DNA of 64,000 bases. Source: Thermodesulfovibrio thiophilus DSM 17215. Its GTDB lineage: Bacteria > Nitrospirota > Thermodesulfovibrionia > Thermodesulfovibrionales > Thermodesulfovibrionaceae. The notes beneath the pieces are model-generated. The model did not search any database, had not been told where the DNA came from, and saw only the letters and a list, made by a program, of their open reading frames with translations. Made by a program: the position numbers and the translations under genes. This document shows, piece by piece, positions 1-18,290 of the stretch; the stretch's first letter is position 1, and every line of letters begins with the position of its first letter. The stretch spans positions 62,001-126,000 of the forward strand of contig NZ_AUIU01000012.1 in assembly GCF_000423865.1 (NCBI RefSeq). Reading direction: 5' to 3'.

Positions 1-1137
1 TGTTTTTATGGCTCTGAACAGATGAAGTATATGACCTGCTCCATCATAGAGAAAACCTTTCCCTTCCTCTGCCTCTATTCTCTTTTCCTGTGGTGCCGGC
101 ACTCTTTCAAGGAGACTATTTAATCCCTTTGCGCCCACTTCCTTCGGTGTCTTAGCAAGAATAAGCCCACCCTTTTGTTCAATGCTTCCTAAAAGTGCAT
201 TAAGAATTATGATAGACCTTGCATTATAAAAGTAGTTCATAGTTCTTGCTGCAAACCATCCTGGATACAGTATCACCTTAGGTTTGTCAGCACTGAGCTG
301 TTTAGCTAGCTCTACTATCTCATAAGATGGTATTCCTGTCTCCTTTTCTGCCCAATCTGGAGTGTAAGGTTTTATGAAATTTTCAAGTTCTGGTAGTCCT
401 GTAATAAATCTTTCTACAAATTCCCTATCAAAGAGATTTTCTCTGAGAATTACGTGTATTAGAGCAAGATTGAATGCATAGTCTGTTCCAGGTCTTATCT
501 GCAAAAATTTTGTTGCTTTTGTAGCTGTTTTTGATACTCTTACATCTAAATAAGTAAGTCTCGCTCCATTGGATAAAGCTTTAATAATGTTGTTTGCCTC
601 TCTAACACCAAGAGATTCAAGCGCGTTTCTACCATAAAAAACCATATGCTTAGTATTTGAAAAATCATACCCAACCTCAGGTCTGCCATATCCAAGAAGA
701 GTTTGATAGGCAAGATCAACATTTTTTCTACAGAAATCATCATGACTGAAGTAATTTGGTGATCCTATTGATCTAAGAAAAACCCTTTGAATCTCTCCAA
801 ATAATCCTGCCCCTCTATCAACAAGAGCTATGGATTTTTTTCCATACTGAGATTGAATATTACCTATAGCTTCAGCTACATATTTAAAAGCTTCTTCCCA
901 GCTGGCTCTTTTAAACTGTCCTGAACCCCTCGGACCAATTCTTATCATGGGATATTGAAGCCTCTCAAAGTCATAAAGCAAAGATATCCCTGAAGACCCC
1001 CTGGCACAGAGACTATGCTCTATACCAGGTACATTAGGATTTCCTTCTATCCAATTGATTCGTTCATCTGTAACTTCAACTCTAATCGGACACCTTACCG
1101 AACACATTCCACATACACTATATAAAGAACGGTTCAT
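1..1137 (-). CDS. Molybdopterin oxidoreductase catalytic subunit, PsrA/PhsA-like (5' part; runs off the window)
   Basis: The first 379 codons of a DMSO-reductase-family catalytic subunit are present; the 3' end lies outside the window. The N-terminus carries a [4Fe-4S] motif with Cys9, Cys12, Cys16 and Cys44 (CGMCSVRC, then SLCARGSSG). Cys136 in DDFCRKN sits where this family places its molybdenum ligand. The segment around FYGRNALESLGVR fits the bis-MGD cofactor fold of polysulfide/thiosulfate reductases; formate or other substrates cannot be excluded. The ATG is preceded by AAGGAGG and, directly in frame, by a TAA, so no longer N-terminus is possible. There is therefore no Tat signal, unlike most PsrA/PhsA proteins, which suggests a cytoplasmic enzyme or export with a partner. 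It lies 14 nt after a TauE/SafE gene as last visible member of the sigma-54-type operon. Confidence 0.85.
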   Translation of the reverse strand, partial: MNRSLYSVCGMCSVRCPIRVEVTDERINWIEGNPNVPGIEHSLCARGSSGISLLYDFERLQYPMIRIGPRGSGQFKRASWEEAFKYVAEAIGNIQSQYGKKSIALVDRGAGLFGEIQRVFLRSIGSPNYFSHDDFCRKNVDLAYQTLLGYGRPEVGYDFSNTKHMVFYGRNALESLGVREANNIIKALSNGARLTYLDVRVSKTATKATKFLQIRPGTDYAFNLALIHVILRENLFDREFVERFITGLPELENFIKPYTPDWAEKETGIPSYEIVELAKQLSADKPKVILYPGWFAARTMNYFYNARSIIILNALLGSIEQKGGLILAKTPKEVGAKGLNSLLERVPAPQEKRIEAEEGKGFLYDGAGHILHLFRAIKT

Positions 1138-1151
1138 TTATATACCTCCTT

Positions 1152-1541
1152 CTAAAATACACCGAGTAAACTCAAAGCAAGAATCAAAAGTCCTACAACA
1201 GCTACTCGCTTAACCACAATAGGGCTTAATCTTTTAGCAATTCTTGGTCCTATGAAACCACCAAGAATTGCTGCTGGAAACATTATTAAAAAGAACACTA
1301 AATCAAAATTTCCAAAACCATAATGCCTGAGTGTGCCAGTTAATGTGTTAAAAAATATAGCAAGAAGTGAGCTTCCAACAACTACATACATTGGGAGTCT
1401 CATAAATACCGTCATAAGGGGAACCATAAATGGACCACCACCGAAACCAAACATAGAAGATAAAACTGCAATTAAAAATGCTCCAGGAATTCCTATCCAA
1501 AGGTTTGCTTTAAACTCCTGTCCCCAGAATTCTATTTTCAT
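1152..1541 (-). CDS. TauE/SafE-family permease, C-terminal-half protein
   Basis: This 129-residue membrane protein is about half the size of a normal TauE/SafE anion exporter (around 250 residues, 8 helices). It has roughly four transmembrane helices and one copy of the family repeat, with GFGGGPFMVPL after helix one. The ATG follows the stop of the preceding gene by 2 nt and has its own GGAGG, so it is a real, translationally coupled gene and not a frameshift remnant. The upstream neighbour carries the matching repeat (GAGGGFILNPILVLLGLP), so the two probably pair to form one transporter. The substrate is likely an oxidised sulfur anion (sulfite, thiosulfate or an organosulfonate), inferred from the family and the adjacent molybdoenzyme. 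Confidence 0.8.
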   Translation of the reverse strand: MKIEFWGQEFKANLWIGIPGAFLIAVLSSMFGFGGGPFMVPLMTVFMRLPMYVVVGSSLLAIFFNTLTGTLRHYGFGNFDLVFFLIMFPAAILGGFIGPRIAKRLSPIVVKRVAVVGLLILALSLLGVF

Positions 1542-1543
1542 AT

Positions 1544-2770
1544 TTATTTACCTCCTTCAGCTTTTTTCTTAGCTGCTTCTTCAGCTCTTTTCTTAAACTC
1601 TTTCAAAATTGCCTGTTCCTTCTTATGCTTTTCAAGATACCCTGGTGTTGTCTGCCAAAACATAAGTGCAGCAAGAATTATAAGTATCCATCCAAATATA
1701 AATTTAAACTGTGCAAGTGTTATAAGCTCAGTAAGTTTTGGGCCAATAAAAGCTCCAAGTATCATAGCTAACCCAAGAGCGATACCAAGTTTCCAGTTTA
1801 TAAATTTTATTTTGGAGTAGTTATAAACTCCACTGGCCTGAGAAAATAATACTGTTGGCATGACTGTTCCAGCAACAACTGTATGTGGCAGTCCGAGGAG
1901 TACAAGAATTGGATTAAGAATAAAGCCACCGCCTGCTCCCATAAGCACTCCGAAGGTTGTTACAACTAAAGCCAGAAAAAATGGTCCAAATAAATTCACT
2001 GTTCTACCTGCGTTAGACAGATAAACATTGGGAAGAGTAACCTTGTTTTCTACTGTAACAAGACTGCTCTTTAGTTCTTTATCAACTTTTGCCAGAATAA
2101 AGTACTTTCCTGGCGCAGTATTAGAAGGTAAATCTAATTCTGCTGTAAATGTTCCATCCTGTGCAATTTTAAGCTTTGATGAAAATATTGTTTCAACACT
2201 TCTAAACTTCGCCTTAAGAAGCTGCATTGATCTTCTTTTGTTGTCTTTTTCATCCATGGGTGGAAGCAAAGTTCCTCTTGAGCCAATTATACTTGCCCAT
2301 AGAGTGGTCTGGTATCTGTCAATTTTTCTCTTTGCAGGCTCTCCATAGACTGCATCAGCACCAGCGTCTTTGATAACCTTTGATACACTCCACTTACCAC
2401 CTTCCTTTTTAGCCTGATCAAGAATGTCTTTGTATTTTTCTGGAACAATCAAAGTATAGAAAGCTGGCATCTCATCTGTCATGTAGAAGATATAAGGTCT
2501 TTTGCCAGTTTTTGGATCAGGGTCTGTATCAAGCCTTGCTGCTCTTACATTTTTTTCAGACCATATTTCAATATAAACATCTTTTCCCTGAGGAGCTTTA
2601 CCGGTAATTGTAATTTTACCTCCTCCAGAAAGCTCTTTTCTGTCAACCTGTAAAACAATTCCTTCTTTTTGAGTCTCTGCAGATGTGACTGACTGTTGCT
2701 CTGCATAAATATTTGTTGAAAAAGCTATTGTAAACATTAAGATAATAGCCAATTTCCAAAAATTTTTCAT
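1544..2770 (-). CDS. TauE/SafE-family permease half with signal peptide and large periplasmic domain
   Basis: This 408-residue protein has three parts: a signal peptide (about 1-23, ending NIYA), a roughly 230-residue periplasmic region rich in beta-strand-like sequence, and a four-helix TauE/SafE repeat (about 260-372) containing GAGGGFILNPILVLLGLP. It ends in a Lys/Glu-rich cytoplasmic tail. A normal TauE/SafE protein lacks the periplasmic domain and has both membrane repeats in one chain; here the second repeat is in the next gene. The domain could bind the transported sulfur anion or a partner, which is inference. The start has a clear AAGGAGG. It lies 21 nt downstream of uspA in the same operon. 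Confidence 0.8.
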   Translation of the reverse strand: MKNFWKLAIILMFTIAFSTNIYAEQQSVTSAETQKEGIVLQVDRKELSGGGKITITGKAPQGKDVYIEIWSEKNVRAARLDTDPDPKTGKRPYIFYMTDEMPAFYTLIVPEKYKDILDQAKKEGGKWSVSKVIKDAGADAVYGEPAKRKIDRYQTTLWASIIGSRGTLLPPMDEKDNKRRSMQLLKAKFRSVETIFSSKLKIAQDGTFTAELDLPSNTAPGKYFILAKVDKELKSSLVTVENKVTLPNVYLSNAGRTVNLFGPFFLALVVTTFGVLMGAGGGFILNPILVLLGLPHTVVAGTVMPTVLFSQASGVYNYSKIKFINWKLGIALGLAMILGAFIGPKLTELITLAQFKFIFGWILIILAALMFWQTTPGYLEKHKKEQAILKEFKKRAEEAAKKKAEGGK

Positions 2771-2791: not shown

Positions 2792-3208
2792 TTATCTCAC
2801 AATCAACACTGACTGCGCAGCATTGGATGCTACTTTCAGTGTTACGCTTCCAAAAAGAGTTCTTTCAGTAGCATCTTTACCCTTTGAGCCAATCACAATA
2901 AGATCATAGTTATTGTCCCTGGCATGATCAACAATGACATCCGCTGGTGTTCCTTCTAAAAGTAGAGTTTCTCCTTTCACCCCCTCTTCTTTAAGAATTT
3001 TCTTAGCAACATTAAGATTTCCCTCAGTTTCTGCTTTAAAAATGGATTCAACAGTTGCACAGTCAATTCCTATCTCTAAAAAACATACCTGTGGAACAAC
3101 GGATAAAACAGTAATGTGAGAGTCAAACTTTTTTGATAAGTTAATTGCTTCAGATAATGCTTTTTTGGACCATTCTGATCCATCATAGCAAACTAATATT
3201 TTCTTCAT
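2792..3208 (-). CDS. Universal stress protein, UspA family
   Basis: This 138-residue cytoplasmic UspA-fold protein begins MKKILVCYDGSEWS. It carries the ATP-binding signature G-x2-G-x9-G-S (GSKGKDATERTLFGS) near the C-terminus, so it probably binds ATP. The frame stays open another 20 codons upstream, but the chosen ATG has GGAGG six bases before it and matches the usual family N-terminus. It is first gene of the operon with the split TauE/SafE transporter and the molybdenum oxidoreductase. UspA proteins often accompany anion transporters, where they are thought to couple activity to energy state. A sigma-54 promoter lies about 100 nt upstream. Confidence 0.9.
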   Translation of the reverse strand: MKKILVCYDGSEWSKKALSEAINLSKKFDSHITVLSVVPQVCFLEIGIDCATVESIFKAETEGNLNVAKKILKEEGVKGETLLLEGTPADVIVDHARDNNYDLIVIGSKGKDATERTLFGSVTLKVASNAAQSVLIVR

Positions 3209-3310
3209 TTCATACCTCCAATTTTCTATTTTCTCATTACAAGGATTTAAAGCACCTCTTAATGACACGAAGAGAATATTTCATATGTCTCATCATCAGA
3301 AAATCGATAG

Positions 3311-3327
3311 TGCAATTACTTTGCCAA
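3311..3327 (-). promoter_or_regulatory. Sigma-54 (-24/-12) promoter of the uspA-tauE-molybdoenzyme operon
   Basis: The minus strand reads TTGGCAAAGTAATTGCA. The -24 GG and -12 GC dinucleotides are separated by exactly ten bases, as required by RpoN. It matches the consensus TGGCACG-N4-TTGCW except at the C and G of CACG. The predicted start site near 3300 gives a leader of about 90 nt for uspA. The two palindromes upstream support activation by an enhancer-binding protein. Confidence 0.7.
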
Positions 3328-3369
3328 TATGAAAGTTATTGATAAAACAGAGAATTTTTAAAGATTTGA

Positions 3370-3385
3370 TGTGCCTGATGGAACA
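3370..3385 (-). promoter_or_regulatory. Candidate enhancer-binding site, copy 2 (imperfect palindrome)
   Basis: The minus strand reads TGTTCCATCAGGCACA. It is an imperfect copy of the perfect palindrome centred 30 bp further upstream, with shared form TGTyCC-N4-GGnACA. Its centre lies about 77 bp upstream of the predicted sigma-54 start site. The spacing of close to three helical turns between the copies fits cooperative binding of an activator on one DNA face. Confidence 0.55.
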
Positions 3386-3394
3386 GAAGAAAAG

Positions 3395-3420
3395 TTAGCT
3401 GTCCCAAATGGGACAGCTAA
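3395..3420 (-). promoter_or_regulatory. Perfect palindrome: candidate enhancer site, possibly doubling as terminator of the aconitase gene
   Basis: An 11-bp perfect inverted repeat (TTAGCTGTCCC) with a 4-base spacer begins 7 nt after the aconitase stop codon. Its centre is about 107 bp upstream of the predicted sigma-54 start site, and a degenerate copy lies 30 bp nearer the promoter. The minus strand continues AACTTTTCTTC, a broken T-tract, so the RNA hairpin could also act as a weak intrinsic terminator. The repeated core TGTCCC/GGGACA makes protein binding the better reading. Confidence 0.6.
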
Positions 3421-7659: not shown

Positions 7660-10415
7660 TAATCACAGAATTTACAATTTTTCTTGAAATCATATGTCGG
7701 TTGAAAGGGTATTTCTAAATTTTTAATTTCAGCTAAAAGACTCTTCATTATCTCAGAAATAATTGACAATCCCTGTCCTTTTTCAATTTCGTTCAATGGA
7801 TTAAAAAAAGCATCATTGTCGATTACATTTCGACCAAGTAAAAAATAATAACCTTCAAGATTTTGTGGATTAATTTTATATTTTTGGGAGTAAAGAAAGA
7901 CATACAGAGGAATTTGAAAACTTCCAATATATTTTGCCCATGATTGCCTGTCTTCAGTACTCAGCCTGTCGAACTTAATTTTAAGATGATCCTGTTTGCC
8001 GGTAATTTTATAATCAACAATAAAAATTTTTTCATTCACCTTTTCAACTTTATCTAATCTGCATGTAAATCTAGAGTCAAAGAAAGTTTCCTCAAAAAAT
8101 TCTTCAACTGAAATTATTTCGATTTTATGTATCTTTGAAATTTCTTGATAGTAATTTATAATTTCATGTAATCTGTCCAGTGTTTGAAGCTTTAATAAAT
8201 AAACTCTGCCTCGTATTTTATTTCCATATTGTTTCAAAAATATATTATCCAAAATTTTTTCTATTTCATTTATTAAATTCTTTTCATTCAAAACTCTACC
8301 TATTCTGAGTTTGAAATATTCCTTTAATGCTTCATGAACTATTATTCCGATATCACAACGATCTAAATCTGATGAAATATCTTTTTCTTTTTTGATCCCA
8401 AGAACATAGGAGTAATAAAATTTCAATCCGCATTTCAAATATTCATCGATTGCTGTTGCTGAAAATGAAAAATTTTTTAATATATCCATCATTTCATGAT
8501 TTTTAACAATGTTATCAGGCATTTTTCCTGCAAGATTAACTTTATAAATAACCGAATGTATCAAATCAGATTGATTATCCTCTAATATAGCTCCTTCTTT
8601 TTTTTCTATAATCCAGATTAATTTTTCGATGAATCTTGATCTTTCATATCTATCATTTTTTATATAAGCAATGTGAACCTCTTCTGCTCCTCTAATTAAT
8701 GTAGAAAAATAGTAATAAATCAGTTTTTCCCTGTCATGATACGTTGGTAATCCAAGAATTTTTCTAATTCTATATGGTAATAGATAGTCTTCAGAAAGAT
8801 TTGGAAAAACTCCTTCATTTAGATCAAGAAAAATAACTTTTTTGAACTTAATATTTCTTGTTTCAAGAAAACCAAGAATTTGTAATCCATTCAAAGGAAT
8901 ACCTTCAAAAGGAATATTCTGAGAAGCTATATAATTTTTAAAAAAGTTAAAGTAAGACTGCTTGAACTCGAACTTTATTTTATTTATTAAAGAGTTAGAG
9001 AGTTTTTCAAACTCAGTTAAAAAAGCTTCAACGTAAGGATAAAAAAGAGGATGATATTTTGCCGTGCTTTTGTCATAAATAAATATCAGCAATTCCCGAC
9101 ATGCATTTATAAACTCTTTAATATTACTAAAAGAAAGAAATTTTTTTATAGCATTTTCATGAATAAATTTAATATGTTCGCTAATTTCTTCTGCTGATAA
9201 AAAAGACTCACCTATGTTTTGAATAATCTTTGATGGAACTTCCTTTTCTATCCATTCAAGTTCAATAAATAACAGAGGTTTTTCGAATTTAAAAAATTCT
9301 TCCATCTCATGGAAAACTATCCTGCTTAATTCAGCACTATTTTTAAAAAAAATATTCTTTGTATACGGATGAAGCATAAATTTTAAGTAAAAAGGAACAT
9401 AAACCATATCATTTTCAATAGAGCTCAAAAGTTCAAATAAAGTTATGAAAAAGCCGTAAATTGGCGTTCTTGAAAGAGGATACCCCATAGAAATGTTATA
9501 ACTTCTTTCATCTAAATATGAAATCCCCTGTCTCACAAGAGGAAAAAGATTCTCAGCATCTGGAAGAACAATCACTGTTCTTTCATCCAGGCTATCAAAT
9601 TCTTTAATTATTTTACCTGCAACTTTAATTTCTCCATGTGTATCAGGACAGCTGTAAAATTTTATTTTGGTGTTTAAAGCTTCGTCATCATCCTGAAACA
9701 CTAAGAAAAAATTTTCTATTTTGCTTAATTTCTCAAGAATTATTTTTTCAGTCTTTGTAAAAGCAAAAAAACCTGCAAAAATTATTTTCTGAAAACTTAA
9801 ATATGAATTCAAATCTGCTTCTGCAACTGTTCTGTACCGTAAAGATCTTGTAGATAGATTTCTGTTGATTAATAACTCATAAAATTCTTTATATGTCTGT
9901 GAAAGAAATCTTAAGCTATTTCGGGAATTTACAGGTATCTCAACAAGTGTTTCCACTTCTTTCAGCTTATCAACTGAAATACCTTCGATATAAAGTTCCT
10001 CGAAAAGATTAAAGAGTTTTAAACCAATAGAGAAAAAATTATCAAATTTTTGAAAAAATGTGGTTAAAGAATTATTTTTTATGCATATTTCATAAATAAT
10101 TCCGGCAGCATCTATTGATTCAATTGAATTTGTATCATTTAATTTTTTAAAAATAAAGTTTATGAATTCATCTATTGAAAAAATACGAGGTGGAATAAAG
10201 GAAGTATTTATCTTTTCTGCCAGCGTTTTTCTTAAATAATGAGATGGTCTTTTACCTGGAAACACGACTACATTTTGGGAATAATTCAAGTTTTCTGAAT
10301 CAATAACTGATACTATACTTTCAATTAAATCCTGGTCTGAGGTTAGTATGATTTTTTGTCTTTCAGAAAGAAAATCTAATTTATCAATTAATTCTTTACT
10401 CTGATTCATATCCAT
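7623..10415 (-). CDS. addB: AddB-like ATP-dependent nuclease subunit (PD-(D/E)XK, Fe-S)
   Basis: This 930-residue protein is the second subunit of an AddAB-type helicase-nuclease that processes double-strand breaks for RecA. The N-terminal helicase-like part lacks an obvious intact Walker A. The C-terminal quarter is a PD-(D/E)XK nuclease (FIVDYKITGKQD) framed by four cysteines of a 4Fe-4S staple: one near residue 660 (LKCGLKF) and Cys914, Cys917 and Cys923 (CKFCDYQAIC). The family is highly divergent, so the call rests on the nuclease/Fe-S arrangement and on addA directly upstream with a 10-base overlap. Its 3' end overlaps dapF by 37 bases. Confidence 0.8.
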   Translation of the reverse strand: MDMNQSKELIDKLDFLSERQKIILTSDQDLIESIVSVIDSENLNYSQNVVVFPGKRPSHYLRKTLAEKINTSFIPPRIFSIDEFINFIFKKLNDTNSIESIDAAGIIYEICIKNNSLTTFFQKFDNFFSIGLKLFNLFEELYIEGISVDKLKEVETLVEIPVNSRNSLRFLSQTYKEFYELLINRNLSTRSLRYRTVAEADLNSYLSFQKIIFAGFFAFTKTEKIILEKLSKIENFFLVFQDDDEALNTKIKFYSCPDTHGEIKVAGKIIKEFDSLDERTVIVLPDAENLFPLVRQGISYLDERSYNISMGYPLSRTPIYGFFITLFELLSSIENDMVYVPFYLKFMLHPYTKNIFFKNSAELSRIVFHEMEEFFKFEKPLLFIELEWIEKEVPSKIIQNIGESFLSAEEISEHIKFIHENAIKKFLSFSNIKEFINACRELLIFIYDKSTAKYHPLFYPYVEAFLTEFEKLSNSLINKIKFEFKQSYFNFFKNYIASQNIPFEGIPLNGLQILGFLETRNIKFKKVIFLDLNEGVFPNLSEDYLLPYRIRKILGLPTYHDREKLIYYYFSTLIRGAEEVHIAYIKNDRYERSRFIEKLIWIIEKKEGAILEDNQSDLIHSVIYKVNLAGKMPDNIVKNHEMMDILKNFSFSATAIDEYLKCGLKFYYSYVLGIKKEKDISSDLDRCDIGIIVHEALKEYFKLRIGRVLNEKNLINEIEKILDNIFLKQYGNKIRGRVYLLKLQTLDRLHEIINYYQEISKIHKIEIISVEEFFEETFFDSRFTCRLDKVEKVNEKIFIVDYKITGKQDHLKIKFDRLSTEDRQSWAKYIGSFQIPLYVFLYSQKYKINPQNLEGYYFLLGRNVIDNDAFFNPLNEIEKGQGLSIISEIMKSLLAEIKNLEIPFQPTYDFKKNCKFCDYQAICGTFTVPS

Positions 10416-13400
10416 TTTATCTCTTCCATATCAAGATAATAAAGACATCCAGTAATAGTAAAATTTTTATAAATGTCTGAAGCCAGGTTTAAATATTTTT
10501 TTATTTGTCCAAAATGTTCTTCTGATGGATAACCTGTTTTATATTCAATAACTGTAACTTTATCTTTATCAATAACCACTCTATCAATCCTGTGAATTAA
10601 TCCTTTATGGTCTGAAATTTCAAATTCATTAAAAAAAATTCTGTCAGGCTTCTTAATAAATAATTCCCTCATTTGAGGATGATCAAGCATCTTCAGAATT
10701 GGCTTTTTGATTTCAGCAATGTCAAAATTTTTTCTTAAATCTCTGTTGATTTTTTCTATATTAGAATCAATTATATCTGTAAATTCTTCATTCCAGAAAT
10801 CTATTGAAGAAAGAACTCTGTGTATAAAATCTCCCCTGTCCTTTTCTTTTAAATGAATCATCTCTTGTGAAACAGGAAATTCAACAGGCAGTGAATGATG
10901 TTCAATTTTCATTATTTTTCTTTCAATATTAAGAGAATAAATTTTAGATAGTTTTGACCCCAATGGTTTGTCCGTAAAATTACAAAGAATATCAAAAGGG
11001 AAATTGCTTTCTTTTTTCATTTTTCCTATTACATATAGTTCATCCTGTGCTCTTGTAAAAGCCACATATAGCGTATTTAAAGAATCTGCCATCTTTGAAA
11101 CTTTTACAGAATCCTTGATCTCTTTCAACCTGTCACATTTATTTGCAAGTTTATCATTTATTTTCATTATACAAAGTGTTTCTTCATCAATTTCATTCAC
11201 TATATATTCATCTGTTTTTTCTCTGGAGTCCTCCAGAAATAAAATTACAACTGGAAAACCAAGTCCTTTTGCCTTATGAACTGTCATAATGTTGATAGCA
11301 TCTATATCAGCTCCCAATGTTATATCCCAGATTTTTTCATCCTCACTTGGATTTGAAAAAAACTCTATAAAATCTTTGATACTACTTAATCCTCGGCCTT
11401 CAAAACTTTTTACAAGTTCAAGAATTTTTAAAAAAGTAGCTTCTTCATCTGGCATAATCTCAAAAACTTTAAAATTGCTTAATGCTACAGACAAAAGATC
11501 ATAAATAGGTAAATATCCTGTAAGTTTAAACATATTTTGAAAATGATTCTCCCATAATGAAGGAAATGCTACCTGATAGTATTTGTATAACGGGGAGTTT
11601 TGCCTGTTTTTTATAATAAACTCCTGAATAGGTTGTAATGTTTTTATACTGTAACACTTTGATAAAAATTCTTTATAAAGATCTCCAAGAATAAAAATTG
11701 AAAAAGAAAAATCATCTACAGGGCTGTCAAGAAATTTAAGAAGATTTAAAATTTCAAAAGTAACCTTTCTTCTTCTTACATCAAGACTGCTATAGGAAAT
11801 AAACGGCAGAGTTAAATCATTTAACCATGAACTGATAGTAACCACATGGTCATTTTTTAATGCAAGAACTGCAATATCTTTAAAACTATATCCTCTTGCT
11901 CTGGTATCATTAATGATATCTATAAAATCTTTTTTTATTTTTGCTTCATTTTCTTCATCGTCTGAATAAAAAGTTTTAACCTCAACATAACCTTCTTGTT
12001 CATATTCTTTTTTTGAAAACTGTTCGTAACGGTCAAGCCCGGTAAGCTTAGCAGGATTGCAATAATCAGAATGATTAACTATATTTTCTTTGAAAAATTT
12101 TTCTACGAATTTTAAAATCATTCCTTTACTTCTATAATTAACACTGAGTTCTTCAACTATTTTATGAGCTGAAGGGAAAATATCTATTTTTTCAAGTTCA
12201 TTCATTATTCTGTAATCAGCACCACGAAAACTATAAATTGCCTGTTTGGTATCACCAACCACGAAAAGACTACCATTTTCTGATAGAGCATTCTCTATTA
12301 ACAGTTTCAGATTTGACCATTGAATAGGCGATGTGTCTTGAAACTCGTCAATAAGAAAATGATGTATTTTTTCTCCGAGCCTGAAATATATCTCTGGAAC
12401 TTTGAATTCGTTAATATATTGAGAAAGCAATTTATTTATGTCTTCTATAAATATTTTACTCTCTGTCTGCTTTACTACATTTAATTTTCGTTGGAAATTT
12501 TTAAAAATATGAAGATAAGGTAAATAAAAAGTTTTAGAATATAAAAAAGCATACTCATCAACAACTTCTTTAAATTCATCCCATAGAAGAATTATATCTT
12601 CATATTTTTGGGTTAAATTTTTATTTTTTGGTTTATTTACAGGGGGTGTTGATATCCCTCTATCAAGAATCTCCTTAAAATTCCTTGTTTTAATGATTGA
12701 TTCAAAAGAGTCATAAATCTGATTTTTTTTATTTCTTTCAAGCCCTGAAGATTTAAGCTCCTCAATAATCTTCTGCATCAGTTCTATTATTTTTTCTTCA
12801 GCTTCAAGTCTACGTTGCTCATCCAGTTCAGGATTAAAAAATTCTTTATTGTTAGCTGTGCTAATAGAATATAACGCTTTAATTTTTAAAAAAATTTCTT
12901 CCGCAGGATCCCAGAGAAAGTTATCCTTATTTTTTTTGATTTTTTCAATAATATTTCTAAACAACCTGATTTCAGGAGACTGTTCTTCAATATCTTTTAA
13001 AAATAAATCATAGGTATAATTCATCATTGCATCATTGTTCATGAGAATTTCAAAGTCTGGATTATAATCAAAATCCAGAGCTGAGGCTTTAAATATAGAA
13101 GTGACAAAACTATCTATTGTTTTTATTTGAAAATCGGAATAATTACTGAGTATATTTTCAAGTGCTTTTTCTGCCATAAATGACAAATCATCATCTTCTA
13201 TAGATAAAATCTTTAAAAATTCCTGCATTGTCTGCTGATTTTTAAAATACAAATCCTTGATCCATCCAAGAATTCTGCTTTTCATTTCATAAGCAGCATT
13301 ATTGGAAAATGTAATGGCAAGAATATGTTTCAAACTACTGTAAGGCACTTCATCTGAAAGTAAAAAAGAGACATATCTCTGTGTAAGAACCCTTGTTTTT

Positions 13401-13465
13401 CCGGAACCAGCAGATGCCTTAAGAATTACATAATGAGGTAATGGAAGCCTAAAAATTTCATTCAT
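10406..13465 (-). CDS. addA: AddA-like UvrD-family helicase/nuclease
   Basis: This 1019-residue SF1 helicase is the motor of the AddAB break-repair complex. Visible motifs are Walker A (ASAGSGKTRVLTQR, residues 17-30), motif II (LIDEFQDTSPIQW), motif III (VVGDTKQAIYSFRGAD), motif V (IMTVHKAKGLGFPVV) and motif VI (LYVAFTRAQDELYV). A C-terminal PD-(D/E)XK nuclease is marked by VIEYKTGYPSEE. There is no Shine-Dalgarno sequence before the ATG; an extended -10 box sits 10 bases upstream, predicting its own near-leaderless transcript in addition to read-through from ppdK. It overlaps addB by 10 bases. Confidence 0.88.
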   Translation of the reverse strand: MNEIFRLPLPHYVILKASAGSGKTRVLTQRYVSFLLSDEVPYSSLKHILAITFSNNAAYEMKSRILGWIKDLYFKNQQTMQEFLKILSIEDDDLSFMAEKALENILSNYSDFQIKTIDSFVTSIFKASALDFDYNPDFEILMNNDAMMNYTYDLFLKDIEEQSPEIRLFRNIIEKIKKNKDNFLWDPAEEIFLKIKALYSISTANNKEFFNPELDEQRRLEAEEKIIELMQKIIEELKSSGLERNKKNQIYDSFESIIKTRNFKEILDRGISTPPVNKPKNKNLTQKYEDIILLWDEFKEVVDEYAFLYSKTFYLPYLHIFKNFQRKLNVVKQTESKIFIEDINKLLSQYINEFKVPEIYFRLGEKIHHFLIDEFQDTSPIQWSNLKLLIENALSENGSLFVVGDTKQAIYSFRGADYRIMNELEKIDIFPSAHKIVEELSVNYRSKGMILKFVEKFFKENIVNHSDYCNPAKLTGLDRYEQFSKKEYEQEGYVEVKTFYSDDEENEAKIKKDFIDIINDTRARGYSFKDIAVLALKNDHVVTISSWLNDLTLPFISYSSLDVRRRKVTFEILNLLKFLDSPVDDFSFSIFILGDLYKEFLSKCYSIKTLQPIQEFIIKNRQNSPLYKYYQVAFPSLWENHFQNMFKLTGYLPIYDLLSVALSNFKVFEIMPDEEATFLKILELVKSFEGRGLSSIKDFIEFFSNPSEDEKIWDITLGADIDAINIMTVHKAKGLGFPVVILFLEDSREKTDEYIVNEIDEETLCIMKINDKLANKCDRLKEIKDSVKVSKMADSLNTLYVAFTRAQDELYVIGKMKKESNFPFDILCNFTDKPLGSKLSKIYSLNIERKIMKIEHHSLPVEFPVSQEMIHLKEKDRGDFIHRVLSSIDFWNEEFTDIIDSNIEKINRDLRKNFDIAEIKKPILKMLDHPQMRELFIKKPDRIFFNEFEISDHKGLIHRIDRVVIDKDKVTVIEYKTGYPSEEHFGQIKKYLNLASDIYKNFTITGCLYYLDMEEIKWI

Positions 13466-13475
13466 TAATTAAGTA

Positions 13476-13484
13476 ATTGTAACA
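13476..13484 (-). promoter_or_regulatory. Extended -10 promoter of addA
   Basis: The minus strand reads TGTTACAAT, an extended -10 ending 10 bases before the addA ATG. The gap between ppdK and addA also holds an 8-bp inverted repeat (TAAGTAAT at 13470-13477, ATTACTTA at 13493-13500). That could be an operator or a weak terminator. Confidence 0.4.
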
Positions 13485-13510
13485 TAGCAGTTATTACTTA
13501 ATCTATTTGT

Positions 13511-16231
13511 TTAAACGGTTGACTTTATAACTTCTGCTCCTTTTCCCTTTAAATTTGCATGCGCTGCTGCTAATTTAGCTATTGGAACTCTGTAAGGAGA
13601 ACAACTTACATAGTTAAGATTTATTTTGTGGCAGAACTCAATTGATTTCGGATCTCCACCATGTTCACCACATATTCCGACTTTGAGATTCTTGTTTGTC
13701 TTCCTTCCTTTTTTCACACCAATCTCCATAATCTGACCAACTCCTTCTGTGTCTATTGTAATGAATGGGTCATCTTCTATTATTTTATTATCAATATAGA
13801 AAGGTAAAAATTTTCCCGCATCATCTCTTGAAAGTCCAAACACAGACTGCGTTAAATCATTTGTTCCAAAGGAGAAAAATTCTGCTTCAGTAGCAATCTG
13901 ATCTGCTGTTATTGCAGCACGAGCAAGTTCTATCATTGTTCCAACCTTATACTCAACTTTTATTCTGTATTGTTTCATAACATCTTCTGATGTTTTCACG
14001 GTCAACTCTTTCATTAACTTCAATTCATTAACATGTGCCACAAGCGGAATCATTATCTCGGGTATAACTTTGATTTTCTTCTTGGCAAGCTCACAGGCTG
14101 CTTCCATTATAGCTCTTACCTGCATCTCATATATTTCTGGATATGTAACTCCAAGACGGCATCCTCTATGACCAAGCATTGGATTAAACTCTTCAAGAGC
14201 TTTAATTTTAGATTTAATTCTTCTGATGGAAACACCCATTTCATTAGAAAGAATCTCTATTTCTTCATCTGTTTTGGGTAAAAACTCATGAAGTGGTGGG
14301 TCAAGAAGTCTTATTGTTACAGGTAATCCTTTCATTTCTTTGAAAATACCAATGAAGTCTTTTTTCTGATAAGGTTTTATTTTATCTAGTGCTTTCTTTC
14401 GCTGATCAATATTATCTGAAAGAATCATTTCTCTGAATGCCCTGATCCTGTCTGGATCAAAAAACATATGTTCTGTTCGGCAAAGTCCAATTCCTGAAGC
14501 ACCAAAATCTCTAGCTACCCTTGCATCTTTTGGAGTATCAGCATTTGCCCTGACTTTAAGCTTACTAAGCTCATCAGTCCATTGCATAATAGTATAAAAT
14601 TCTTTTGAAAGTTTAGGCATAACAAGTGGTGCCTGTCCAAGAATAACCTCACCAGTAGTTCCATTTAATGTAATATAATCCCCCTCTTTAACAGTAATTT
14701 CTCCAGCTGTAAAACATTTTTCTTCTTCACGAATGGTTATCTCTCCGCAGCCAACAACACAACATTTGCCCATTCCTCTGCCAACAACAGCGGCATGAGA
14801 AGTCATGCCTCCTCGTGCTGTTAATATTCCCTGAGCAACTGCCATTCCGCCAATGTCCTCAGGTGATGTTTCATTTCTTACAAGAATAACCCTTTCTCCC
14901 TTTTCTACCCATTCTTCTGCATCCTGAGCTGAAAAAACAACCCTGCCAACCGCTGCTCCAGGGCTTGCAGGCAATCCTTTTGCTATAACTTTAACCTCTG
15001 CCTTTAGATCAATTGTAGGATGAAGAAGTTGATTGAGTTGTTCAGGTTCTATTCTTAAAAGAGCTATTTTTTTATCAATAAGTTTTTCATTTACCATATC
15101 AACAGCTATTTTTATTGCAGCTGCAGCTGTTCTTTTTCCAACTCTTGTCTGAAGCATATAGAGTTTGCCTTCCTGAATTGTAAACTCTATATCAAGCATG
15201 TCCTTGTAATGCTTCTCAAGTTTATTGCATATTTTTTCAAGTTGAGAATATATTTTTGGCATTCTTCTTTTAAGTTCTTCAATTTTTAAAGGAGTTCTGA
15301 TACCTGAAACAACATCTTCTCCCTGTGCATTTACCAGAAATTCAGCAAAAAATTTTTTTTCTCCTGTAGATGGATCTCTTGTAAAACCAACTCCTGTACC
15401 TGAATTTTCTCCCATATTACCAAAAACCATTGCAACAATATTACATGCTGTGCCAAGATCATCTGGTATTCCGTGAAGCCTTCTATAGGTTGCTGCTCTA
15501 TCTCCATACCATGAATCAAAAACAGCTTTTATTGCCATCCTAAGCTGTTCATAAGGGTCTGAAGGAAAATTAGTACCCGTCTCTTTTTTATAAAGTTCTT
15601 TATATTTTTTAACAAGAGTTTTAAAATCTTTTGCATCAAGTTCTGTATCTAATTGAACATCTTTTGCCTTTTTAGCTTCTTCAAGTAAATCTTCAAATTT
15701 TTTCCTGTCTATATTAGTAACAATACTTCCAAACATTGTAATAAATCTTCTATAGGTATCATATGCAAATTTTTCATTTTTTGTTTTCTTTATTAAACCT
15801 TTAAGGGTTTCATCATTTAATCCAAGATTTAATACTGTATCCATCATTCCTGGCATGGAAAACTTCGCACCTGATCTAACAGAAATAAGAAGCGGATTTT
15901 CAGGATTACCAAATTCAGAATTCATTGATTTTTCAACATTTTTCAGATTATTTAAAACTTCCTCCCACATTCTGTCAGGAAATTTTTTGCCAAGACTAAA
16001 ATATTCTCTACAGGCTTCTGTGGTAATTGTAAATCCTGATGGAACCGGAATTCCAAGATTGGTCATCTCAGCAAGTCCAGCTCCTTTCCCGCCGAGAAGA
16101 TCCTTCATTTGAGCTGTTCCTTCTGCTTTCCCATCTCCAAAATAGTAAACATATTTTTTCCCTGACGTTAATTTTTTTGATGTTGATGCTTTTTTGAGAG
16201 GCTTTTTTTGTTTTTTAGATGTCAAGGCCAT
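13511..16231 (-). CDS. ppdK: Pyruvate, phosphate dikinase
   Basis: This 906-residue PEP-utilising enzyme interconverts pyruvate, ATP and Pi with PEP, AMP and PPi. The order is an N-terminal ATP-grasp domain, the phosphohistidine swivel (GGMTSHAAVVGRGMGK) and the C-terminal PEP/pyruvate barrel with catalytic Cys in CGEHGGDP. It is slightly longer than usual because of a Lys/Ser-rich N-terminal extension of about 25 residues before YVYYFGDG. AGGAGG supports the start. In a thermophilic anaerobe it would serve gluconeogenesis from acetate or pyruvate. It is upstream of addA on the same strand, which is probably accidental. Confidence 0.96.
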   Translation of the reverse strand: MALTSKKQKKPLKKASTSKKLTSGKKYVYYFGDGKAEGTAQMKDLLGGKGAGLAEMTNLGIPVPSGFTITTEACREYFSLGKKFPDRMWEEVLNNLKNVEKSMNSEFGNPENPLLISVRSGAKFSMPGMMDTVLNLGLNDETLKGLIKKTKNEKFAYDTYRRFITMFGSIVTNIDRKKFEDLLEEAKKAKDVQLDTELDAKDFKTLVKKYKELYKKETGTNFPSDPYEQLRMAIKAVFDSWYGDRAATYRRLHGIPDDLGTACNIVAMVFGNMGENSGTGVGFTRDPSTGEKKFFAEFLVNAQGEDVVSGIRTPLKIEELKRRMPKIYSQLEKICNKLEKHYKDMLDIEFTIQEGKLYMLQTRVGKRTAAAAIKIAVDMVNEKLIDKKIALLRIEPEQLNQLLHPTIDLKAEVKVIAKGLPASPGAAVGRVVFSAQDAEEWVEKGERVILVRNETSPEDIGGMAVAQGILTARGGMTSHAAVVGRGMGKCCVVGCGEITIREEEKCFTAGEITVKEGDYITLNGTTGEVILGQAPLVMPKLSKEFYTIMQWTDELSKLKVRANADTPKDARVARDFGASGIGLCRTEHMFFDPDRIRAFREMILSDNIDQRKKALDKIKPYQKKDFIGIFKEMKGLPVTIRLLDPPLHEFLPKTDEEIEILSNEMGVSIRRIKSKIKALEEFNPMLGHRGCRLGVTYPEIYEMQVRAIMEAACELAKKKIKVIPEIMIPLVAHVNELKLMKELTVKTSEDVMKQYRIKVEYKVGTMIELARAAITADQIATEAEFFSFGTNDLTQSVFGLSRDDAGKFLPFYIDNKIIEDDPFITIDTEGVGQIMEIGVKKGRKTNKNLKVGICGEHGGDPKSIEFCHKINLNYVSCSPYRVPIAKLAAAHANLKGKGAEVIKSTV

Positions 16232-16343: not shown

Positions 16344-17507
16344 ATGGAAGAAATTTTTATTAAACCTTTAAAAAAATACGGAAGTCTCTGGATTTATAAA
16401 AATGAAATTCTATCAGACATCACGCATTTAACTCCCGGTAGTCTCCTAAGAGTTTATGAATCAAGATCAAATAAAATTATTGGAACAGGATATATAAACC
16501 CAAAATCAACAATTTCTATAAGACTTCTCAGTTTTAAAAAAGAAAATATAGATGCTGAATTTTTTCATCAAAAATTTCAACAGGCAATAAAATACAGAGA
16601 AGAATTTTTAGGACTTAAACATAGCTATCGAATGATATATAGTGAATCTGACGGGCTTCCGGGCTTGATAGTGGATAAATACAATAATTGCCTTGTAATT
16701 CAGATTCTGACCGCTGGAATGGAGACTTTTAAGGATTTAATAATCGAACTTTTAGATAAAATTACTAATCCAGAGATTATCGTTCTTAAAAATGACTCTT
16801 CATCAAGATTGAAAGAGGGTCTTGTAACAGAGAAAAAAATAGTGAAAGGAGAACTCAGCGAACTTCCAGTGATTTATGAAGATGATGTTAAATTTTTAGT
16901 TAACCCAGTTCATGGACAAAAAACAGGCTTTTTTCTGGATCAGAGAGAAAATAGGCTATTTCTTAAACAATTCATTACTGCTGGAGAAGGACTTGACCTT
17001 TTTTGCTATATTGGTTCATGGAGTATTCATCTCGCAAAAAAGGGAGCAAGTGTTACAGGAATTGACAGTTCAGAGCATGCAATAAATTCAGCGAGAGATA
17101 ATGCAAAAATTAATAATTTGAATGAAAAATGTAAATTTATAAAAGCTGATGTATTTAACTATCTTAAATGGGAGATAAAAAAGAACAAACGCTATGACTT
17201 CATGGTGGTTGATCCGCCTGCTTTTGTAAAATCAAAAAATCAGAAAGACGATGCTATCGAAGGATATTTAACTTTAAATAGTTTAGCGTTAAAACTTTTG
17301 AAAAAAGATGGGATCCTTACCACATCATCATGTTCACAGCACATATCAGACTTTGAATTCTCAGAAATAATTAAGGAAGCTCTTTCACGAAATAAAAGAA
17401 CAGGAAAGGTATTATATAAAGGAATCCAGAGCAAGGATCATCCAATACTTTTAACTATGCCAGAAACAGCTTATCTGAAATGTTTAATAGTTAAACTATT
17501 TGACTAA
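16344..17507 (+). CDS. rlmI: SAM-dependent 23S rRNA m5C methyltransferase, RlmI-like
   Basis: This 387-residue protein has an N-terminal PUA RNA-binding domain and a C-terminal Rossmann methyltransferase. Motif I is GLDLFCYIGSWSIHLAKKG, motif IV is VVDPPAFVKS, and a catalytic cysteine lies in TSSCSQHI, as in cytosine-5 rRNA methyltransferases of the RlmI/RlmO group. NPVHGQKTGFFLDQRENR is the family hallmark. The exact target base cannot be read from sequence. There is no Shine-Dalgarno; a TTGACT -35 at 16308-16313 with a poor -10 at 16331 suggests leaderless expression. It opens the long plus-strand run to 26143. Confidence 0.88.
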   Translation: MEEIFIKPLKKYGSLWIYKNEILSDITHLTPGSLLRVYESRSNKIIGTGYINPKSTISIRLLSFKKENIDAEFFHQKFQQAIKYREEFLGLKHSYRMIYSESDGLPGLIVDKYNNCLVIQILTAGMETFKDLIIELLDKITNPEIIVLKNDSSSRLKEGLVTEKKIVKGELSELPVIYEDDVKFLVNPVHGQKTGFFLDQRENRLFLKQFITAGEGLDLFCYIGSWSIHLAKKGASVTGIDSSEHAINSARDNAKINNLNEKCKFIKADVFNYLKWEIKKNKRYDFMVVDPPAFVKSKNQKDDAIEGYLTLNSLALKLLKKDGILTTSSCSQHISDFEFSEIIKEALSRNKRTGKVLYKGIQSKDHPILLTMPETAYLKCLIVKLFD

Positions 17508-17529
17508 AAAACCATATTTTAATTAAACT
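17500..17529 (+). promoter_or_regulatory. Promoter of tpiA, predicted leaderless
   Basis: TTGACT (17500-17505), overlapping the rlmI stop codon, and TAAACT (17524-17529) are 18 bp apart. The -10 ends 8 bases before the tpiA ATG, which has no ribosome site. Confidence 0.45.
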
Positions 17530-17537
17530 TTTAAATT

Positions 17538-18290
17538 ATGCGAATGAAATTTTTCATGGCAAACTGGAAGATGCACAAGACTGTTCAAGAAGCGCTTGAG
17601 TTTTTAAAAGATTTCATTCCATCTGTTCAGGGTATATCTGACAGAGAAATTGGTATAGCTCCTGCATTTGTATGCATTGACAGTATGTCAAAAGCTTTAA
17701 GGGATACAGATATAAAAGTTGGGGCTCAAAATGTTTTTTATGAAAATAAAGGAGCATATACCGGAGAAGTATCTCCAGTAATGCTTAAAGACTTAAATAT
17801 TGATTATGTAATAATTGGCCATTCAGAAAGACGAAAATATTTTCATGAGACAGATGAAATAATTAATCTTAAAATAAAGGCAACTATGAGTGAAAACCTA
17901 AATGTGATTTTCTGTATTGGCGAAACACTTGAAGAAAGAGAATCAGAGAAAACATTTGATGTTTTAAAAAAACAAATTGAAAAAGGACTTGAAAATATAG
18001 AAAAATATGACTCTTTAGTATTGGCTTATGAACCTGTATGGGCAATTGGAACAGGAAAAGTGGCATCTGAATTGCAAATTGAAGAAGCTCATGCATTTAT
18101 AAAAAATAGATTAAAAGATATTTATTCAGATAAAGCTGACAGAATAAGAATACTTTACGGTGGAAGTGTTAGTCCTGAAAATATTCATTCAATAATGAAT
18201 ATTGCCAATGTTGACGGAGTCCTTGTCGGCGGTGCCAGTCTTGACCCTGAAAAGTTTTTAAAAATTATAAAATATGAAGAACGAAAATAA
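17538..18290 (+). CDS. tpiA: Triosephosphate isomerase
   Basis: This 250-residue glycolytic/gluconeogenic enzyme interconverts glyceraldehyde-3-phosphate and dihydroxyacetone phosphate. The catalytic residues are visible: Lys11 (ANWKMHK), His95 (IIGHSERR) and Glu165 (LAYEPVWAIGTGKVA), and the phosphate loop is LYGGSVSPEN. Two start codons are possible (MRM); the upstream ATG is preferred because a -10 box lies 8 bases before it and neither has a Shine-Dalgarno. It is followed after 16 nt by secG, a neighbour pair common in bacteria. Confidence 0.97.
   Translation: MRMKFFMANWKMHKTVQEALEFLKDFIPSVQGISDREIGIAPAFVCIDSMSKALRDTDIKVGAQNVFYENKGAYTGEVSPVMLKDLNIDYVIIGHSERRKYFHETDEIINLKIKATMSENLNVIFCIGETLEERESEKTFDVLKKQIEKGLENIEKYDSLVLAYEPVWAIGTGKVASELQIEEAHAFIKNRLKDIYSDKADRIRILYGGSVSPENIHSIMNIANVDGVLVGGASLDPEKFLKIIKYEERK

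Follow-up and report, generated by a model that had tools for sequence, protein, structure and literature searches.

In the AioXSR system, arsenite oxidase is expressed from a sigma-54 promoter under the control of a PhnD-fold protein, a kinase and an NtrC-type regulator, which also activate an mcp gene (PMC7533571, PMC5908839). For Desulfovibrio vulgaris, the parts of PMC4641369 considered here place the response regulators DVU0110 and DVUA0057 at the sigma-54-dependent TSUP permease operon DVU0132-DVU0133, and report nine sigma-54 operons that encode TSUP/PSE transporters. A third relevant case is Thermodesulfovibrio sp. N1, for which the passages of PMC5165239 considered here describe a Psr-linked cluster lacking NuoEFG (THER_0567-0582) and suggest that it may couple sulfur chemistry to the pumping of protons. 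Sigma-54 control of TSUP/TauE permeases is already documented, as is the Psr-Nuo cluster; new, as far as the literature searched shows, are the operator, a three-component regulator of the PhnD type and a unit that extends to Psr and complex I. That search, which covered few subscription papers, returned no description of the operator, of a PhnD/sigma-54/thiosulfate system or of TauE-Psr-Nuo regulation.

The Thermodesulfovibrio locus shares features with each of these systems and departs from each. As in AioXSR, ArxXSR and ArrXSR, a PhnD-fold periplasmic protein, a kinase and an NtrC-type regulator are encoded together, a sigma-54 promoter lies before a molybdoenzyme operon, and a gene for a methyl-accepting protein is associated with it. 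Unlike in those systems, the sensor lipoprotein carries two PhnD domains and is by sequence closest to PtxB, and TauE, a PsrA-like enzyme, complex I and YeeE/YedE-type transporters take the place of arsenite oxidase as targets. By analogy, we regard the Thermodesulfovibrio system as one that works like AioXSR, but with sulfur targets. With the DVU0110/DVUA0057 case it has in common the NtrC-type response regulators and TSUP (TauE-type) permeases in a sulfate reducer, but the PhnD-type sensor and Psr-Nuo genes are unreported for D. vulgaris in the parts of PMC4641369 considered, and the TGTCCC-N4-GGGACA operator was not found in its text (its motif figures lie outside this comparison). The gene cluster, its arrangement and the proposal that links proton pumping to sulfur chemistry are the same as for THER_0567-0582, whereas regulation and the upstream usp-tauE genes are not treated in the passages of PMC5165239 considered.

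We analyzed a 64-kb stretch of the Thermodesulfovibrio thiophilus genome, which as a whole we call the window. We are fairly confident that positions 3311-3420 of the window form the control region of a sigma-54-dependent sulfur-respiration operon with a three-component regulator. The relevant features are as follows.

1-1137, minus strand: start of a PsrA/PhsA-type molybdoenzyme (695 aa in full), which continues past the window edge.
1152-1541, minus strand: tauE2, second half of a TauE/SafE permease, 129 aa (PF01925 positions 123-237).
1544-2770, minus strand: tauE1, N-terminal domain and first half of a TauE/SafE (TSUP) permease, 408 aa (PF01925 positions 2-114).
2792-3208, minus strand: uspA-type universal stress protein, 138 aa, first gene of the operon (PF00582).
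3299-3301, minus strand: predicted transcription start, about 12 nt after the -12 GC, placed by sequence geometry only.
3311-3327, minus strand: -24/-12 sigma-54 promoter element TTGGCAAAGTAATTGCA, from the sequence, conserved in the genus.
3332-3345, minus strand: IHF-like element TTATCAATAACTTT between operator 2 and the promoter, a block in the alignment with a putative function.
3370-3385, minus strand: predicted operator 2, TGTTCCATCAGGCACA, a degenerate dyad TGTTCC-N4-GGCACA, from the sequence and relatives.
3400-3415, minus strand: predicted operator 1, TGTCCCATTTGGGACA, a perfect dyad TGTCCC-N4-GGGACA, from the sequence and relatives.

A preliminary description of this DNA had placed a well-spaced -24/-12 element on the minus strand and, upstream of it, a perfect palindrome and a degenerate copy, and all of these positions were confirmed. 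The spacing of TTGGCAAAGTAATTGCA is GG-N10-GC, that of a sigma-54 promoter. Operator 1 is the core of a perfect 12+12 bp inverted repeat (3395-3420), its start is 30 bp from that of operator 2, and the dyads are centred about 107 and 77 bp before the predicted start near 3300. Neither perfect palindromes nor tandem pairs occurred in 60 simulated 64-kb sequences with the dinucleotide content of the window; the real window has one tandem pair, that at 3370-3415. Single palindromes with up to three mismatches number seven in the window against 7.9 expected, so a lone loose palindrome is unremarkable, and what carries weight is that one copy is perfect, that the two are paired, where they stand and that they are conserved. 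Our genome-wide statements on T. thiophilus rest on pattern searches. The search for the palindrome, which the preliminary description had proposed as a check, found no further intergenic operator: six other matches to TGTNCCN4GGNACA are present in the genome, five within coding sequence (mostly over codons for V-P-x-G-T-like peptides) and one at a parS-like site. Because these six are coding or parS-like, there is no wider regulon in this genome at that strictness, and we rejected a genome-wide regulon of the palindrome in T. thiophilus. The parS-like (ParB) site, TTTTGTTCCACGTGGAACAAAA, is intergenic and matched the loose palindrome pattern (G000:C11:23699-23714; L010:4001-4016). A sigma-54-like match at 18061 was also rejected, as it falls inside a coding gene.

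Conservation of the palindromes and of the -24/-12 element in close relatives had been set beforehand as a test, and the region passed it. Orthologs of tauE1 were found in 14 of the 16 Thermodesulfovibrio genomes, and 12 genomes have both dyads (or recognizable remnants) and TGGCA-N6-TTGC directly ahead of usp. The dyads are 30-32 bp apart in nearly all relatives with near-constant distances to the promoter and operon, and 83-91 bp separate the start of dyad 1 from the -24 element in 14 genomes. This fixed position of tandem dyads relative to the promoter supports the enhancer-binding-protein (EBP) layout that had been proposed. In operator 1, TGT-NCC and GGN-ACA are invariant in 14 genomes and the flanking arms vary; operator 2 is more degenerate across relatives, and two genomes (G013 and G014) keep operator 1 with a weak second dyad. 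The TGGCA-N6-TTGC block is conserved in 13 of 14 genomes of the genus, with an invariant -24 element, and it is degraded only in G003, the one genome that has lost the -12 GC. There the sequence at -12 is TTGTTA and only a remnant of usp is left, yet the two operators and the regulator gene are retained (L066); without a -12 element in this promoter, some other promoter must serve the operon in that genome. G002 keeps the promoter-operator block about 300 bp farther upstream of usp, behind an insertion. This insertion, between the sigma-54 promoter and usp, is roughly 330 bp of repeat-like sequence (L067). The promoter alignment also contains an IHF-site-like block, TTTCAATAA-N-TT, between operator 2 and the promoter, and the T. 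thiophilus genome has four HU/IHF-family genes. Lastly, a composite pattern of the promoter, 62-92 bp and TGTNCCN4GGNACA, searched in the 16 genus genomes and in reversed controls, occurred exactly once per genome in 13 of them and never in the controls; it is missing from G003 and from two incomplete genomes, neither of which yielded the operon.

The preliminary description had named a sulfur-anion transporter and a polysulfide/thiosulfate-reductase-like enzyme as the target. The genes match PF01925 and the Thermus polysulfide/thiosulfate reductase 2vpw, and the operon runs further than had been proposed, into a complex I that lacks NuoEFG. 2vpw is the best solved relative of the molybdoenzyme (E 7.7e-105), with ArrA far lower; against the PhsA model the enzyme scores 526 bits, under the model cut-off of 694 bits, and no export signal is evident at its N-terminus. 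Past the window (G000:C10:47651-62000) lie an FeS protein gene, nuoB-D-I-A-C-H-J-K-L-M-N and an MCP gene, so that the full order is usp-tauE1-tauE2-PsrA-like molybdoenzyme-FeS protein-nuoBDIACHJKLMN, and the psrA-like and psrB-like genes are followed by a complex I set without NuoEFG, as in the Psr-linked cluster of Thermodesulfovibrio sp. N1. It is possible, if unlikely, that the sigma-54 unit comprises usp-tauE1-tauE2 only and that the molybdoenzyme and complex I genes have promoters of their own: tauE1-tauE2 occurs in many genomes without mol or nuo genes behind it, G003 keeps the genes without the promoter, and a single unit would presuppose read-through across the 17.6 kb from the promoter to nuoN. 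However, the gaps from usp through nuoK are tiny or the genes overlap, and the usp-tauE-mol-fes-nuo order is kept in nearly every locus-bearing genome of the genus that is readable that far, which argues for one long unit. A few further observations concern the operon itself. The methyl-accepting chemotaxis protein gene lies within the nuo set in T. thiophilus (G000:C10:50465-52048; L088:14465-16048) and after nuoN in relatives, which parallels the mcp gene under AioR control. In G001, a transposase-like gene and others split the operon between the FeS gene and nuoB (L062, oriented 9250-13600), and the interrupting genes include a second copy of the ORF found ahead of usp. Five operons (G004, G006, G007, G008 and G010; L070-L074) contain an extra gene for a single-domain PhnD-like binding protein (PF12974), which could supply or sense the substrate.

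For the activator, T. thiophilus encodes 13 strong PF00158 proteins and one weaker one, and GAFTGA loops are present in these sequences. In six Thermodesulfovibrio genomes (G001, G004, G006, G007, G014 and G015), the nuo operon ends next to a convergently oriented cassette that encodes a PhnD-type lipoprotein (PF12974), a histidine kinase (HisKA/HATPase) and an NtrC-type response regulator (PF00072-PF00158-PF02954). In T. thiophilus the regulator gene is not adjacent to the usp-tauE operon; the ortholog is a 461-aa protein (G000:C12:3567-4952) with 73-76% identity (the next-best EBP has about 45%), and kinase and lipoprotein genes adjoin it behind murJ-like and MBL-fold genes. In other Nitrospirota the cassette is found directly upstream of (usp-)tauE, with regulators that are 54-59% identical (L138, L142, L158, G136 and G209), and in L138, L142, G136 and G209 the cassette and tauE come with the same tandem operators and a promoter. 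Two of these genomes, G136 and G209, carry the cassette and the operator-promoter region along with MBL-fold and/or murJ-like genes, an arrangement that joins both cassette placements found in Thermodesulfovibrio. In every class-A locus that we read, the linked EBP is a REC-type regulator. The likely activator of the operon, from these gene neighborhoods, is the NtrC-type regulator encoded with the PhnD-like lipoprotein and histidine kinase. The dedicated activator that the preliminary description had postulated without recognizing it is thus supported, as a specific NtrC-type regulator is linked to the operon across Nitrospirota genera and its helix covaries with the palindrome (see below). 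That description had missed the three-component PhnD-type sensor system to which this regulator belongs. An EBP gene 18 kb from the operon in G013 was rejected as a candidate, as it belongs to another family (an ortholog of the C16 EBP of T. thiophilus) and is unlinked elsewhere.

We also ran the tandem-operator pattern over 396 Nitrospirota genomes without conditioning on tauE. This yielded 18 places, each in a different genome; the reversed control gave none. Thirteen are at tauE1, and one lies just after a class-A regulator at a contig end. Two (G170 and G291) precede a gene for a PF04143 sulfur transporter of the YeeE/YedE type, and in G291 PhnD-lipoprotein and kinase genes are near that site. 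Another is 0.9 kb ahead of a PhnD-type gene (G048), and the last, in a genome of the same genus (G084), is near a contig end with no target assigned. At the PF04143 genes, which represent a second target class, tandem TGTCCC operators are accompanied by a -24/-12 element (L235:1063-2711; L229:3409-5085).

Sequence and comparison show the elements and how they are conserved, the order of the genes, the link between operator and regulator, and the covariation of operator and helix, and from these we infer a chain of events. The periplasmic lipoprotein, with its two PhnD-type domains, would detect an oxyanion, most likely a sulfur oxyanion, and signal to the membrane histidine kinase, which would then phosphorylate the NtrC-type regulator (G000:C12:3567-4952). 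The two TGTCCC-N4-GGGACA dyads are three helical turns apart, and the phosphorylated regulator would bind both on the same face of the helix; an IHF-like protein may bend the DNA so that the regulator reaches and activates the sigma-54 polymerase at -24/-12. Read-through as far as nuoN would give one long message for usp, the two-part TauE permease, the PsrA-like molybdoenzyme and its FeS subunit, and a complex I that lacks the NADH module.

The sensor has PtxB, which binds phosphite, as its best PDB match (2.5e-21), with ArrX weaker (3e-11) and no match to AioX within E 0.001. Its domains thus belong to the PhnD/PtxB/ArrX fold family, and the layout equals that of AioXSR (PMC5908839, PMC7533571), so that the same architecture might instead answer to phosphite, a phosphonate or an arsenic oxyanion, with the operon serving that compound. 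We think this improbable, as the targets are TauE, a PsrA-like enzyme and, in two genomes, the PF04143 sulfur transporter; the molybdoenzyme is nearest to polysulfide/thiosulfate reductase, of the PsrA/PhsA type rather than an arsenite oxidase or arsenate reductase; and no aio, arx or ptx genes were seen in the loci. What the targets have in common is the handling of sulfur and not a particular enzyme, and this makes a sulfur oxyanion the most likely signal, judged only from target genes and with a sensor whose closest solved relatives are phosphite-binding PtxB proteins. On balance we lean towards a previously unrecognized Nitrospirota three-component sigma-54 system that senses a sulfur oxyanion (for example thiosulfate or sulfite) and induces TauE/YedE-type transport and a molybdoenzyme-driven complex I. 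A specific candidate activator, its operator and a target set can thereby be named for a respiratory operon in which a complex I without its NADH module would be fed by a PsrA-like molybdoenzyme. The two-domain PhnD-type branch with sulfur-handling targets would, if this is true, extend PhnD-type signaling from arsenic to sulfur, and the ligand of the sensor would reveal the substrate of the TauE permease and the molybdoenzyme. The hosts matter for the sulfur cycle of hot and deep environments; T. thiophilus is here termed a hot-spring sulfate reducer.

The class-A regulators that we read have the helix SRKQLRTKMK, paired with TGTCCC-N4-GGGACA pairs 30-32 bp apart. In L158 the helix is TRRQLRTKMKNL and the operator TGTACC..GGTACA, while in a sister class (L145, L148 and L157) the helix RKVLWKK(I/L)KEY goes with pairs of GTTCCC-N4-GGGAAC separated by 43-44 bp. 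The distances in both classes come close to whole helical turns. Among the T. thiophilus EBPs compared, the RKQLRTKMK helix occurs in the G000:C12 regulator alone. No other indirect evidence speaks as strongly for the regulator reading the palindrome as this covariation over few independent classes. It also bears on the reading in which the sigma-54 promoter is as described but another EBP activates it, such as the GAF-domain NifA-like protein G000:C9:16920, a reading that we hold to be quite improbable. The upstream activator sequences of NifA are TGT-N10-ACA and lie ahead of sigma-54 promoters; TGTCCC-N4-GGGACA formally fits these half-sites with equal spacing, the GAF-type EBP adjoins glnB/glnK-like and amtB-like genes (L094:1574-3094; G000:C9 about 16470-17990), and the 14 PF00158 proteins, strong and weak, offer other candidates. 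However, the inner CCC/GGG, which NifA sites do not need, is conserved here, and the linked EBP is a REC-domain response regulator in six Thermodesulfovibrio genomes and several other genera and never the GAF protein in the loci read, quite apart from the covariation of the operator with the response regulator's helix.

Returning to the response regulator and its dyads, the gene upstream of the promoter-operator block is an aconitase gene, a membrane-protein gene or a divergent ribonucleotide-reductase-like gene, depending on the genome, and as the block stays while these vary, it belongs to the operon and not to aconitase. That the perfect palindrome is instead the intrinsic terminator of the upstream aconitase gene, with the rest coincidence, is highly improbable and this identity was rejected: the palindrome lies 7 bp past the stop codon of the aconitase gene and forms a strong hairpin, but in place of a proper T-tract an interrupted one follows (CTTTTCTTCT). 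Conservation is limited to the 6+6 bp core, five of 14 genomes have broken core pairs, and the flanks are not kept paired. The palindrome is also present in genomes with another gene upstream, a divergent one in G007, and the second dyad and the fixed promoter distance are left unexplained. As a side effect, the palindrome may terminate acn transcripts.

Sigma-54-like elements are found ahead of tauE in other phyla as well. In Desulfobacterota, seven loci (L178, L184, L192, L198, L204, L205 and L208) have sigma-54-like promoters ahead of tauE1, and several related loci encode a different EBP class with the helix ERQAFQRLLRR. The tauE loci of Desulfobulbaceae likewise combine sigma-54-like promoters with another EBP class.
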